Below, in pieces: positions 486 to 4,747 of a stretch of DNA of 36,122 nt. A model generated the notes under the pieces. That model did no database searches. It was given only the letters and a program-made list of their open reading frames with translations, and was not told where the DNA came from. The DNA lies in assembly GCA_902783895.1 (NCBI GenBank), contig CACZST010000004.1, forward strand, positions 1 through 36,122, in the 5' to 3' direction. The DNA comes from an uncultured Erysipelotrichaceae bacterium. Its GTDB lineage: Bacteria > Bacillota_I > Bacilli_A > RF39 > UBA660. The stretch's first letter is position 1. Every line of letters starts with the position of its first letter. Both the position numbers and the translations under genes were made by a program.

Positions 486-1025
486 TTAAAAGTCTTTATA
501 TAAAAAACATTCTTTTTCATGACTATATATAATTCCAACTGCTTGAAGGTATGAATAAATAATTAAACTACCAACAAATTTCATGCCTCTTTTTCTCAAA
601 TCATCACTTATTTTCTTAGACAGTTTTGAGTCAGTTTTACCCACTTCAAAATATATTTTGCCTAAGGTAAATTTTTTTAAATAATTATAAAATGAACCAT
701 ATTCTTTTTAAATACTTTTAAATATCTTCGCATTACTTATACTAGCTTTTATTTTTAATTTATTTCTTATAATTTTTTCATTCATACATAGTTTTTTTAT
801 TTTATCATCATCATAATTAATAACCTTGTCGATATTAAAATCATCATAAGCTATTTTAAAATCTTTTCTTTTATTAAGTACACATTCCCATGAAAGTCCT
901 GCTTGAAATGATTCCAGTACTAACATTTCAAATAAATACTTATCATCAGTATTTAAACTGCCCCACTCTTCATCATGATATAAAACATATAAATCGTTAT
1001 TTAAATTACACCATTTACATCTCAT
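486..1025 (-). pseudogene. tag: DNA-3-methyladenine glycosylase I with one in-frame stop
   Basis: Tag removes 3-methyladenine from alkylated DNA in the first step of base-excision repair. The first 105 residues read MRCKWC...YHDEEWG...LESFQAGLSW and then stop at a TAA (708-710). Translation continues in the same frame for 73 more codons to a TAA at 486, and that stretch is the normal Tag C-terminus (KEYGSF, KKRG-like DLRKRGMKFVGS, YLQAVG). Together the two parts give 179 codons, against about 187 in E. coli Tag. All four zinc ligands known from E. coli Tag are present (C3, H17, and H169 and C173 in the HEKEC motif), and so is the catalytic Glu at 38. The stop sits where homologues usually have Gln, so one C-to-T change (CAA to TAA) explains it. 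It is a recent pseudogene, a population variant or a sequencing error. Confidence 0.85.
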
Positions 1026-1044: not shown

Positions 1045-1074
1045 AAAAAAGAAAATTATATATTACTAATTTTC
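1045..1074 (-). terminator. Terminator of the rpsU-yqeY operon
   Basis: On the minus strand GAAAATTA pairs with TAATTTTC around an 8-nt loop, followed by TTTTTTATTA. The stem overlaps the last codons and stop of yqeY. Confidence 0.7.
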
Positions 1075-1499
1075 TCCTTTACAATCTTACTAACTAATCC
1101 CATATCAGCTTTACCTCTAACAAGTGGATTAATTTCTTTCATAATCTTACCCATATCTTTTTGTGAAGTTGGTTTAACTATATCAAATACTTTATCAATA
1201 GTCTCTTCAATTTCTTCATTTGTCATTTGTTTAGGTAAATACTCCATTAAAATATCAATTTCTTCTTGAGTTTTATTAATTAAATCGTCCCTTGAACCTT
1301 TTTCAAATTCTTTAATTGAATCTTTTCTTGATTTAATTTCTTTTGAAATAACATCAATAACTTCATCATCTGTAAGTTCACGTTTTTTATCAAGCTCAGT
1401 CATTTGAATAGATCCTTTAACAAGTCTAATAACCGCAAGTCTTTCCTTATCTTTATTTTTCATTGCATCTTTCAAATCATTTAATATTCTATCCTTCAA
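1056..1499 (-). CDS. yqeY: YqeY/GatB-tail family protein
   Basis: This 147-residue protein belongs to the YqeY family, which resembles the C-terminal tRNA-handling domain of the GatB amidotransferase subunit; its exact role is unsettled. Family landmarks are the N-terminal DLKDAMKNKDKERLAVIR helix, the charged SRKDSIKEFEKGSRDDL segment, EYLPKQM, and the closing GKIMKEINPLVRGKADMGLVS. Length and layout match the family end to end. The start is TTG (1497-1499) behind an AAAGGAGAGGA site, and no ATG is available near the conserved N-terminus. It lies downstream of rpsU after a 37-base gap containing a weak hairpin; the rpsU-yqeY pair is common in Bacillota. Confidence 0.92.
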   Translation of the reverse strand: MKDRILNDLKDAMKNKDKERLAVIRLVKGSIQMTELDKKRELTDDEVIDVISKEIKSRKDSIKEFEKGSRDDLINKTQEEIDILMEYLPKQMTNEEIEETIDKVFDIVKPTSQKDMGKIMKEINPLVRGKADMGLVSKIVKEKISNI

Positions 1500-1516: not shown

Positions 1517-1538
1517 AAAAAAGCCCTTTAAAAGGCTT
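1517..1538 (-). terminator. Attenuator-like hairpin between rpsU and yqeY
   Basis: On the minus strand AAGCCTT pairs with AAGGGCTT (one wobble), followed by TTTTTTG, overlapping the rpsU stop codon. Because yqeY follows at once with no promoter of its own in sight, partial termination is likely. That would keep yqeY expression below that of the ribosomal gene. Confidence 0.55.
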
Positions 1539-1734
1539 AATTGTATCTGTTTGATAAACGATTTCTTTTTCTGGTATTTTTTATACCTTCTTCTTTGGCT
1601 TTTCTTCTTTTAACTCCAGGTTTTAAATAGCCTTGAGTTCTTTCCTTCAGTTTTGCTCGGGAGCCATCTTTATCAACCTTTAAATTTCTTAAAGCGCCTT
1701 CTACGTTACCGTTTCTTACCATAACTTTTGTCAT
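1537..1734 (-). CDS. rpsU: 30S ribosomal protein bS21
   Basis: bS21 is a small basic protein of the 30S platform near the anti-Shine-Dalgarno end of 16S rRNA. The 65-residue product has the family opening (KVMVRNGNVEGALRNLK) and the strongly basic tail (VKRRKAKEEGIKNTRKRNR). Compared with typical bS21 ([21 protein letters not shown]...) the central part is slightly diverged, but length and charge pattern fit. The ATG lies behind an AAGGGAGGG site. It is the first gene of the rpsU-yqeY operon, with a strong promoter 30 bases upstream. Confidence 0.93.
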   Translation of the reverse strand: MTKVMVRNGNVEGALRNLKVDKDGSRAKLKERTQGYLKPGVKRRKAKEEGIKNTRKRNRLSNRYN

Positions 1735-1810: not shown

Positions 1811-1833
1811 AAAGAAAAAGTGACAAAATCACT
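1811..1833 (-). terminator. Terminator of the bacteriocin operon
   Basis: On the minus strand AGTGA pairs with TCACT around a 5-base loop, followed by TTTTTCTTTTATTTT. It lies 12 bases past the second peptide gene. The stem is short, so strength is uncertain. Confidence 0.55.
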
Positions 1834-1844
1834 CCTTCTAACAC

Positions 1845-2003
1845 TTAAATTTTGCAAATTTTACCTTCAGATGTTCTTCTTATTGCCGATCCTAAAGACC
1901 TTCCTAAATCAATAATTATATCAAACACTTTAACTACTGCATTAACCATAGTCGAAGATAGACCGCCACCTTTAATCTTCATAAGTTCTTCTTTTTCCAT
2001 CAT
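1845..2003 (-). CDS. Double-glycine leader peptide, putative bacteriocin subunit B
   Basis: A 52-residue peptide. The leader MMEKEELMKIKGG ends in the Gly-Gly that C39-peptidase exporters cut, matching the family pattern ELxxIxGG. The predicted 39-residue core begins GLSSTMVNAVVKVFDIII and is a cationic amphipathic helix with a GxxxG motif (GRSLG). It ends in GKICKI, with one Cys three residues from the C-terminus. The ATG (2003) overlaps the stop of subunit A in an ATGA junction behind a GAGGTG site, which implies coupled translation. An alternative ATG follows immediately at 2000. Paired short GG peptides next to one exporter are typical of class IIb two-peptide bacteriocins. No sequence match to a named bacteriocin is claimed, and a peptide signal is an alternative. 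Confidence 0.82.
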   Translation of the reverse strand: MMEKEELMKIKGGGLSSTMVNAVVKVFDIIIDLGRSLGSAIRRTSEGKICKI

Positions 2004-2134
2004 AAATTACACCTCACAGGCCTAATTATTCCATCAACAACACTTATGATAAAGCCAATTGCCGCCGCTATAGCCGCATAAATACCATAACCGCCACCTT
2101 TGACTTCTTTTAAATAATCTTCATTTAATGCCAT
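2000..2134 (-). CDS. Double-glycine leader peptide, putative bacteriocin subunit A
   Basis: A 44-residue peptide. The leader MALNEDYLKEVKGG fits the double-glycine consensus (LNxxxLxxVxGG). The predicted 30-residue core begins GYGIYAAIAAAIGFIISVVD, a hydrophobic helix with AxxxA and AxxxG small-residue motifs. It ends in RPVRCNL, again with a single Cys three from the C-terminus. The ATG has an AAAGGAGA site that overlaps the TGA stop of the exporter gene, only 11 bases separate the two genes, and the next peptide overlaps it by 4 bases. Its GCG-rich core codons are noticeably more G+C-rich than the surrounding DNA. No separate immunity gene is visible; subunit activity and target are unknown. 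Confidence 0.83.
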   Translation of the reverse strand: MALNEDYLKEVKGGGYGIYAAIAAAIGFIISVVDGIIRPVRCNL

Positions 2135-2145
2135 AAAATCTCCTT

Positions 2146-4128
2146 TCACATCCTTACTTCATCTAAAACTACTTTCCCTTGTTTTAATTTTATAAGCCTT
2201 TCAAATAAATCTAAATTATCAAGTCTATGAGATATAAAAATAATAGTCTTATCAGAATACTCTTTAAATAAATCTTTTAAAATTCTCCTTTCCATATCTA
2301 TATCAACCTGATTTAAACCTTCATCTATAATAAGTATATCAAAATCATTAAGCGCTCTAGCTAAGATTATCCTCTGTCTTTGACCACCAGATAAATTAAA
2401 ACCATCTTCTAAAATTAAGTCATTATTCCCAATTGGTAAGTCTAATTTTCTAACTTTACCCCCTGCTAAACATAAGTTATCTTCTAAAGTGCCAGTAAAA
2501 AGAATTTCATTTTGTGATATGTAGCTAATTTTCGGCATATATTTTAAAATGTTTTTTCCACTTATTAATATATCACCTTTATAATTAGGATATAATCCCT
2601 TTAAAATTTTAAATAAAGTACTTTTACCACTTCCACTAGTGCCAATTACCATAACCTTTTCTTTTTCTTTTATTTTTAAGTTAATATTATTAACCACATA
2701 TACATTACCAAATTTATAAGAAATATTTTTAAACTCTATATCTCCAGTTAACCTTTTTCTTTTCTTCTTTAAAAAATTATAATCTAAAAGTCCATTTATA
2801 TGTTTAATGCAAGACTTAACTTTTTTAAAATCCATACCAAAATTTAAAATAACTAAAAAATTATCTAAAATAAATGATGAAAGAATAAAAATAGTTATAA
2901 ACTTTCCTATACTCATACCAGATTTAATACACATAAATCCATAAATAAATAAAATAAACATACCAAAATAATTAATAAAATTATTTTCCAAATTAAACTT
3001 ATTATGATATCTATTAAGCTTAGTAACCTTTTTTAAATAATTATCATACTTTCCTTTAAATTTTAAAATAAACTTTTTCTCTAAATCTAAATTTTTAACC
3101 GTTTCAAAACCCATTATAGATTCAGTCATATATGAAGTTTGATTAGATTTTCCCTCTAAAACTAAATCATTTAATACCTCACCTTTCTTTTTATAACTAA
3201 AATATATAATAAAGTAAATAAAACAAATAAAAATATTAAGAAAACAAACATTAAAATCTAAATATAAAAGAATAAAAAATGAAAATAAGATAGTAGGAAT
3301 AACTGTTAAAAATGATAATGAAAGTTTTCCAATAAAATCTCTTATCCAAATTAAATCATTAAAATAGCTTAAAATCTCACCAGTAGTTTTTCTTCTAAAA
3401 AAAGGATAAGGAAGATAAGTAATAGATTTAAAAGTATCCAAAGAAATGAATCTATCAATATTATTATTAAGTTTTATTAAATAATTACTACATATATATT
3501 CAAGTAAAGATTTAAACAAGAAGATAAAAAAGAATATCCCACTGATTTTAAAAATTATATCTTTATTAATATTATTAAAAATTATCTGAAAAAAGAAAGA
3601 AGATAAAACCGATAAAATACTAATAATAAGTGACATTAAAGAAATGATAATTATATTTTTTTTATTTAATTTTATTAATTTAAATAAAAAATCTTTCACC
3701 TTAATTTCCTTTTCTAAAGGAAGTGTTTTAACAGGCTTCATTGTAATTATAATTCCTGTCCACATCTTTTTAAAATCTAATATTTTTACCCTTTTTATTC
3801 CTTTTATAGGATCAGAAACAACTAAATATTTATGTTTAAAATTAACTTCATATATTACCACATAATGCATGTAGGAGTTATCTATCTTTAAATGAGCAAT
3901 TGCTGGTAAATCAAAATTAAAGTTATCTTTTTTAAGTCCACAAGCTTTAAACCCTAAATTTTCTAAAGTCAAAATAATATTATAAGCTGTTGTTCCTGTT
4001 ATATCGGTCTCAAGCATCTCACATAATTTATTAATACTTACATAACCTCCATAATATTTTAAAATCATAAGCACACAAGCAGCAGCACAATCTTTAATAC
4101 CTTCCTGATAAATAATAGGATACTTCAA
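2146..4128 (-). CDS. Peptidase C39-containing ABC bacteriocin exporter
   Basis: A 660-residue fused processing and export protein of the LanT/ComA/BlpA type: it removes double-glycine leaders on the cytosolic side and exports the core peptide. Residues 1-120 are the C39 Cys-protease (Q8, C14 in the motif QEGIKDCAAAC, H88, D106). Residues about 150-430 hold the transmembrane domain with about six helices. Residues 460-660 are the ATPase, with Walker A GTSGSGKST (496-504), signature LSGGQRQ (579-585), Walker B ILIIDEG (598-604) and H-loop His634. All catalytic residues are present. The start is TTG (4126-4128) behind AGGTGAG, and no ATG is better placed. Two GG-leader peptides follow at once, so they are the likely substrates. 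No HlyD-type accessory protein or regulator is nearby. Confidence 0.93.
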   Translation of the reverse strand: MKYPIIYQEGIKDCAAACVLMILKYYGGYVSINKLCEMLETDITGTTAYNIILTLENLGFKACGLKKDNFNFDLPAIAHLKIDNSYMHYVVIYEVNFKHKYLVVSDPIKGIKRVKILDFKKMWTGIIITMKPVKTLPLEKEIKVKDFLFKLIKLNKKNIIIISLMSLIISILSVLSSFFFQIIFNNINKDIIFKISGIFFFIFLFKSLLEYICSNYLIKLNNNIDRFISLDTFKSITYLPYPFFRRKTTGEILSYFNDLIWIRDFIGKLSLSFLTVIPTILFSFFILLYLDFNVCFLNIFICFIYFIIYFSYKKKGEVLNDLVLEGKSNQTSYMTESIMGFETVKNLDLEKKFILKFKGKYDNYLKKVTKLNRYHNKFNLENNFINYFGMFILFIYGFMCIKSGMSIGKFITIFILSSFILDNFLVILNFGMDFKKVKSCIKHINGLLDYNFLKKKRKRLTGDIEFKNISYKFGNVYVVNNINLKIKEKEKVMVIGTSGSGKSTLFKILKGLYPNYKGDILISGKNILKYMPKISYISQNEILFTGTLEDNLCLAGGKVRKLDLPIGNNDLILEDGFNLSGGQRQRIILARALNDFDILIIDEGLNQVDIDMERRILKDLFKEYSDKTIIFISHRLDNLDLFERLIKLKQGKVVLDEVRM

Positions 4129-4149
4129 AAAAACTCACCTTCCTCTATA

Positions 4150-4177
4150 AATATATATACGCGGTGAGTATACCCAA
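4150..4177 (-). promoter_or_regulatory. Candidate promoter of the bacteriocin operon
   Basis: On the minus strand: TTGGGT (4172-4177), 16-base spacer, TATATT (4150-4155). The spacer holds a small inverted repeat, TATAC and GTATA around TCACCGC. The -35 match is weak, so an activator or read-through from rsmD is possible. Confidence 0.35.
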
Positions 4178-4196
4178 ATCCTTCAAAATAAAAAAA

Positions 4197-4718
4197 TTAC
4201 TTCTTAAAAATTTTAACCTTTTTTAATCCGTAACTTTTCTCTTTCCATAAAGGTAAATTACATTCAAAATCATTTACCTCATATTCACAAACTATAATTC
4301 CACCCTCATTAAGTAAATCTCTTTCCTCAATGATTCTAATTGCCTTACCCATCAAACCTTTTCTATATGGTGGATCTAAAAATATAATATCAAATTTATC
4401 TTCAGTTTCTTTTAAAAATTTCTTATAATCCATATTCAAAACTTCAATATCATCTTCCATATTTTTAATATTTTCTTTTATTGTTTTAACTGAAATACTA
4501 TTATTATCAACCAAAACCCCCTTCGAAGCTCCATTACTAATTGCTTCAATACCTAAAGCCCCACTACCTGAAAATAAATCCAAAACCTTTGAACCAGGTA
4601 AAACACCTTGAATCATAGCAAATACTGACTCTTTTACCCTATCCATTGTTGGTCTTGTACCATCAATATCAAAACCTTTTAATTTTTTTCCCTTATATTT
4701 TCCACTAATAATATGCAT
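4197..4718 (-). CDS. rsmD: 16S rRNA (guanine(966)-N2)-methyltransferase
   Basis: RsmD methylates G966 of 16S rRNA in the assembling 30S subunit using S-adenosylmethionine. The protein starts MHIISGKYKGKKL, the normal RsmD opening. It then shows RPTMDRVKESVFAM, the SAM-binding LDLFSGSGALGIEA, and the catalytic DPPY motif (FLDPPYRKG). I chose the ATG at 4716-4718 (173 residues) because a GGGTGA site lies 3 bases upstream; a TTG four codons earlier would overlap that site. It follows ylbE with a 29-base gap, matching the ylbD-ylbE-...-rsmD order of Bacillus. The usual downstream coaD is missing, and the bacteriocin operon sits there instead. Confidence 0.94.
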   Translation of the reverse strand: MHIISGKYKGKKLKGFDIDGTRPTMDRVKESVFAMIQGVLPGSKVLDLFSGSGALGIEAISNGASKGVLVDNNSISVKTIKENIKNMEDDIEVLNMDYKKFLKETEDKFDIIFLDPPYRKGLMGKAIRIIEERDLLNEGGIIVCEYEVNDFECNLPLWKEKSYGLKKVKIFKK

Positions 4719-4747
4719 AAAATCACCCAAAAGTATTTTATCACAAA

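Follow-up and report, generated by a model that had tools for sequence, protein, structure and literature searches.

A candidate competence-coupled two-peptide bacteriocin operon conserved across a large family of uncultured gut Bacilli

The window analysed in this work is a stretch of 36,122 nucleotides from an uncultured Erysipelotrichaceae bacterium of the RF39 lineage. Its start coincides with the end of contig G000:C4, and the focal genome is a draft of 1.04 Mb that is 78% complete. The minus strand carries, in this order, rsmD, an ABC exporter, two small peptide genes (A and B), a terminator-like hairpin, rpsU and yqeY (Table 1). A sequence-only reading of the window had proposed an undescribed two-peptide bacteriocin operon between positions 1,811 and 4,177. 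We confirm the exporter, both small open reading frames, their double-glycine (GG) leaders and the ATGA overlap at 2000-2003, which is at once the stop of A and the start of B. The hairpin closes the unit right after B, so an exporter-A-B unit fits the limits that had been drawn. Beyond yqeY, the tag gene for a 3-methyladenine glycosylase (486-1025, minus strand) looks split: 708-1025 covers positions 1-99 of a 177-position profile, and the open reading frame at 486-644 resembles the C-terminal part, which suggests a frameshift.

Table 1. Features of the operon and its neighbours, with window coordinates
Feature	Position	Strand	Description
rsmD	4197..4730	-	Cons_hypoth95, 176 bits; upstream syntenic neighbour, context outside the system; precedes most exporters of the genus
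SigH/ComX-like promoter site	4150..4185	-	Predicted, TGAAGGATTT-N14-CGTATATATATT; exporters throughout the family are preceded by this motif
C39-peptidase ABC exporter	2146..4128	-	660 aa; Pfam C39 109 bits, ABC_membrane 101, ABC_tran 77
Peptide A	2000..2134	-	14-aa GG leader, 30-aa hydrophobic core with RPVRCNL end; orthologue behind the exporter at 111 loci
Peptide B	1845..2003	-	13-aa GG leader; the cationic, amphipathic core has 39 aa, contains GRSLG and IRR and ends in CKI; orthologue at 113 loci
Terminator-like hairpin	1813..1839	-	12-bp stem and T run; immediately 3' of B
rpsU	1537..1734	-	Ribosomal_S21; downstream syntenic neighbour, context; follows B at most loci that are long enough to tell
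yqeY	1056..1499	-	YqeY, 169 bits; downstream syntenic neighbour, context; yardstick of vertical descent

The C39, ABC_membrane and ABC_tran domains of the exporter all score above their Pfam cut-offs. The protein aligns end to end with PCAT1 (PDB 4ry2) and keeps Gln8, Cys14, His88 and Asp106. With a C39 domain, a TMD, an NBD and the catalytic Cys, His and Asp, 2146-4128 is a C39 peptidase-containing ABC exporter, and the sequence-only reading was right that no catalytic residue is missing. Its peptidase domain would be expected to cleave the GG leaders off both peptides.

Peptide A consists of the leader MALNEDYLKEVKGG and the core GYGIYAAIAAAIGFIISVVDGIIRPVRCNL, and peptide B of the leader MMEKEELMKIKGG and the core GLSSTMVNAVVKVFDIIIDLGRSLGSAIRRTSEGKICKI. 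In A the leader GG is 97-98% conserved (98% for its second Gly), and a Pro three residues ahead of the C-terminal Cys is 100% conserved (n=111). The invariant positions of B are the second leader Gly, Gly34 and Gly38 of the GRSLG motif, and Cys50 (n=113). A has a hydrophobic segment; B carries the G34xxxG38 motif and a mean core charge of +3.1, and is modelled by AlphaFold2 as a single helix spanning residues 17-46. Two traits of class IIb bacteriocins are thus present, namely two adjacent short GG-leader peptide genes in one operon and hydrophobic or amphipathic helices that bear GxxxG-type motifs and include a cationic one. The curated cut-offs of PF10439 and TIGR03949 are missed (15.6 bits for A and 12.8 for B against 27.1; 21.1 against 21.5 for the A consensus), so the pair is not filed under either family. 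Searches of the PDB with the A and B profiles gave no useful match. Judged by these sequence features, the two genes appear to encode an undescribed, C39-exported, class IIb-like pair whose cores each have one conserved Cys, much as first proposed. Several genes of the family seem to begin with ATT codons behind good ribosome-binding sites, among them peptide A of loci L043 and L056 and the gene at L213 7724 (minus strand).

The pair is far from confined to the focal genome. The B profile matches 267 of the 291 genomes and 144 of the 150 genera of the host's family, which is probably UBA660 of the order RF39, including 195 of 206 good-quality genomes and several genomes of just 0.4-0.6 Mb. The exporter has orthologues throughout nearly all of the genus (42 of 44 genomes, with the focal one counted) and, beyond it, in a majority of the family's genera that were sampled. 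At every locus with a long enough contig, A and B trail the orthologous exporter. Both open reading frames recur in this way at more than 100 independent loci, far beyond what chance would produce; two outcomes that would have overturned the sequence-only reading, exporter homologues lacking the small genes and orthologues lacking the Cys, were looked for and did not emerge. Where B is missing, the exporter match is mostly missing as well: this holds for 16 of the 20 genomes without B, judged by convincing C39-exporter matches. G205, G147 and G129 have partial exporter matches only, near a contig end in G205 and G147, and G258 retains a full-length, divergent copy. It follows that the peptides and the exporter are retained or lost together. 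A different kind of event is seen in G058 (locus L058), where, directly behind the exporter, a serine-recombinase element interrupts peptide A after '...VIDG'. This element may use A as an integration site; the gene C match of this genome (see below) lies on a different contig (C5).

Samples of 346 genomes of the class and 392 of the phylum, in which the family is itself represented, gave no convincing relatives of the peptides outside it. Two genomes of the f4 family (L149 and L150) yielded borderline hits, which proved to be unrelated GG-leader peptides by rplU/rpmA that match chiefly in the leader. These are proteins of 95-116 aa (L149 2816-3166 and L150 3411-3698, both minus strand) in genomes that read TGA as Trp, and it is possible that they are substrates of C39 exporters there. 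PADLOC matched nothing except a generic ABC ATPase, Rfam gave no match, and we found no paper linking RF39 with double-glycine leaders.

Could this be an ordinary accessory bacteriocin locus, present here by happenstance? Peptide A is weakly similar to PF10439 and TIGR03949, as such a locus would be. However, B is near-universal in the family, the phage records searched contain no match, and the plasmid records yield only two weak hits, both to class IIb peptides of Streptococcus suis. The dN/dS of A and B is about 0.1, with the closest pairs mostly at about 0.03-0.25. The median pairwise identities of the cores (45% and 48%) exceed that of the exporter (39%), and all lie below that of yqeY (60%). 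Pairwise distances follow those of yqeY, with Mantel r values of 0.66 for the exporter, 0.51 for A and 0.61 for B, where the largest permuted value is 0.28. Taken together, these results show that A and B evolve by vertical descent under purifying selection, unlike the participants in an arms race. An accessory or mobile locus is thus rejected on distribution and synteny, and we regard it as scarcely credible. Bacteriocin pairs are usually patchy, mobile and fast-changing; this pair is core and vertically inherited in a large uncultured gut family.

The cysteines deserve a closer look. The C-terminal Cys is invariant in both peptides (111/111 in A and 113/113 in B), and most cores contain exactly one Cys (103/111 and 109/113), which makes an intramolecular bond impossible in those. 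The sequence-only reading had placed this Cys third from the C-terminus in both peptides and had seen in the C-x-[LI] end a possible modification signal. The Cys itself has stood up well, and its exact position has not: between one and five residues follow it in A and between none and three in B, so that the end as such is variable and no conserved C-x-[LI] signal exists. The same reading had also suggested that A and B form a disulfide-linked heterodimer, an arrangement that is compatible with every function discussed here. The single invariant Cys of each core fits this suggestion, as does the frequent C-terminal Cys of a third protein in related genera. On the other hand, searches of the genus for DsbB (0/36), Thioredoxin_4/BdbD (0/40) and VKOR (0/40) were negative, in draft genomes and with other oxidants conceivable. 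The anaerobic gut habitat that is expected for the host group disfavours spontaneous oxidation, and the operon has no oxidoreductase gene; gallocin A has one nearby (PMC10100652). The disulfide is weakened by these results, and we consider it a tentative proposal that is somewhat more likely to be wrong than right.

Upstream of the exporter lies a motif that may connect the operon to competence. The site AAAAGGAAAT-N13/14-CGTATATTAATA is found about 57 bp ahead of the exporter start in the focal genus, and other genera have GAAT variants of it. Of 102 upstream regions, 37 contain the pattern in a strict form, compared with 0.4% of background windows. The consensus of Bacillus subtilis SigH is RWAGGAXXT-N14-HGAAT, and the exporter motif resembles this SigH/ComX type. 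No sporulation (SigE/F/G/K) promoters were seen by eye. We scanned 420 kb of the focal genome (840,000 positions) with a matrix trained on the exporters of the genus, tested genomes being left out. The site before dnaG ranked first, the exporter fourth (18.1 bits) and comEA-comEC fifth, and with 200 column-shuffled matrices neither comEA nor dnaG ever came among the ten best. The exporter, comEA-comEC and dnaG of the focal genome are thus predicted to have a site in common, comEA in this one genome only. In two further genomes of the genus, predicted sites precede dnaG and a gene of the PD-(D/E)XK family (G014) and an M23 peptidase gene (G015). A full-length SigH-like sigma factor is encoded in 32 of 36 genomes of the genus, with scores below the curated cut-off.

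Some observations speak against a link to competence. The comEA site comes from a single genome, the stretches covered in other genomes containing no comEA; dnaG of G051, which belongs to a different genus, has no site; and the upstream regions of spo0A lack the motif. The spo0A regions show 0A-box-like and housekeeping-type sites instead, and Spo0A control was rejected. We also observed that Spo0A is found in 52 of the 60 family genomes examined, notwithstanding genome sizes of about 1 Mb. SigH/ComX-like sites (L213 7754, L215 19649, L216 16727 and L187 86, all on the minus strand) precede PD-(D/E)XK nuclease/transposase-like genes of G014, one of three of which has a Pfam hit, and a G000 gene cut off by the contig end. 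The genes behind these sites are possible members of a competence regulon.

A promoter of this type would also suit a cell-cell signal. One or both peptides might be pheromones that leave through a ComA-like transporter and coordinate entry into competence or sporulation; the exporter does align with pneumococcal ComA (E 7e-74), and Spo0A is widespread in the family. Yet the best match of the exporter is a bacteriocin-type transporter. Obligatorily paired hydrophobic and amphipathic helices of 30-40 aa would be long for signals. The locus contains no receptor kinase gene, and neither a 0A-box nor a kinase neighbourhood was noticed there. We think it quite unlikely that the peptides are signals.

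In pneumococci, ComX induces cibABC, which encodes a two-peptide bacteriocin and its immunity protein, together with comEA-comEC and lytic enzymes, and rpoD is up during competence (PMC6560143, PMC5295010). Against this background, our preferred reading is that the operon encodes a two-peptide bacteriocin that is coupled to competence, resembles CibAB in design and is a core trait of the family. On balance we lean towards this reading with modest confidence. A and B would leave the cell as a class IIb-like bacteriocin, produced under the SigH/ComX-type competence programme. The hydrophobic helix of A may pair with the cationic helix of B in the target membrane through small-residue (GxxxG-type) faces, and the single C-terminal cysteines would be needed to assemble the pair, whether they form an inter-peptide disulfide or make some other contact. 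The pair would then lyse or permeabilise neighbouring cells and free DNA for uptake by ComEA/ComEC, the job that CibAB does in pneumococci. The points in favour of this reading are the constant linkage of A and B to the exporter, the invariance of the cysteines, the co-loss, the promoter ranks, the SigH-like factor and the parallel with ComX, to which a homology found in related genera can be added.

This homology concerns one of two additional proteins. Outside the focal genus, a candidate HlyD-like protein of 117-166 aa (H) is encoded between the exporter and A at 51 of 69 loci. Its AlphaFold2 model (pLDDT 86.5) has an N-terminal transmembrane helix followed by a beta domain. Among known structures, it is membrane fusion proteins that match it best (BesA, Z 8.8; Spr0693, 8.7; MacA, 8.2), with Foldseek E values above 0.05, and Pfam gave no hit. 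The second protein (C), found at 47 of 70 loci outside the genus, is a leaderless membrane protein of about 50 aa whose gene overlaps the end of B. In a profile-profile alignment its C-terminal half matches the core of B (hhalign probability 93%, E 2.7e-7), and in 36 of 47 C proteins the shared GxxxGxxR motif is followed by a Cys. The immunity peptide of gallocin A has been modelled as resembling its toxins (PMC10100652). By analogy, gene C is a candidate immunity mimic of B: in most other genera it may present a B-like helix behind a transmembrane anchor and shield the producer by competing with B. In G127 (L152 3878-4451, minus strand), a third GG-leader peptide of 46 aa, B-like and without a C-terminal Cys, occupies the usual place of C.

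The focal genus has neither protein in these places (0 of 40 loci for exporter-adjacent H and 0 of 38 for downstream C). Searches for gene C elsewhere in the genus with the C profile returned only B itself or stray hits. The sequence-only reading had seen no immunity gene. This holds for the focal genus, and most other genera carry the candidate C. The lack of gene C or another recognised immunity gene is the main weakness of the bacteriocin reading, and is awkward if the peptides are toxic to their producer. The strong conservation of the cores relative to the exporter and their low dN/dS also count against it, and near-universal carriage is unusual for a bacteriocin.

An alternative is that the peptides are no weapon and return to the envelope of the producer where, with the anchored C of related genera, they would form a membrane assembly that aids DNA uptake or envelope remodelling. 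The core distribution, which extends to the smallest genomes, and the purifying selection agree with such a self-directed role, as do the Cys that C often shares with A and B at its end and the retention of A and B without C in the focal genus. A dedicated GG-leader exporter and a helix pair, however, fit the known designs of secreted bacteriocins, and such an assembly has no known or solved structure; our PDB searches with A and B gave nothing useful. We judge a self-directed role unlikely. Its most specific form, in which A, B and the B-like C are a Cys-linked envelope assembly that serves family-wide as a fixed part of competence and acts on the producer for DNA uptake, is in our view very unlikely.

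The sequence-only reading is partly supported by this work and needs enlarging. What it described as a single operon is a family-wide trait, accompanied by H and C in related genera and preceded by a promoter that is predicted to resemble those of comEA-comEC and dnaG. Genomes of this family are reduced to about 1 Mb and the pair is apparently tied to DNA uptake, and the question of why gut Bacilli with tiny genomes keep competence becomes directly testable. The operon also provides a new peptide family, whose members are short, can be synthesised and carry a single cysteine that does not vary.

In architecture and C39 active-site residues, the exporter agrees with C39 peptidase-containing ABC transporters such as PCAT1 of Clostridium thermocellum. 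It differs from them in its length of about 660 aa and in its TIGR01193 score of 306, against a cut-off of 524. The class IIb families of lactobin A/cerein 7B and lactococcin G (PF10439, TIGR03949 and PF11632) have GG leaders, adjacent helix-forming peptides, GxxxG-type motifs and a C39 exporter in common with A and B; scores against these profiles remain under the curated cut-offs. Most known class IIb peptides, e.g. lactococcin G and plantaricins EF and JK, contain no Cys (PMC10100652). Gallocin A, a class IIb bacteriocin of Streptococcus gallolyticus, is similar in that it consists of two peptides whose cysteines matter and has an immunity peptide modelled as a toxin mimic; here it is protein C that is homologous in sequence to the core of B. 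Each gallocin A peptide has two Cys joined by an intramolecular bond (PMC10100652), whereas A and B have one core Cys and do not belong to this subgroup.

The pair seems class IIb-like in design and, by its predicted regulation, similar to CibAB of Streptococcus pneumoniae. In both systems, two small GG-leader peptides are encoded by adjacent genes that belong, like comEA-comEC, to a competence sigma-factor regulon; for A and B this membership is predicted. We also count as shared that cibAB is, as far as is known, conserved throughout the species S. pneumoniae and not strain-specific. CibAB and A/B are not known to be related in sequence. The cib operon has a separate immunity gene and no dedicated exporter, unlike the unit described here, and A and B are set apart by their invariant C-terminal Cys and by their conservation across a whole family.
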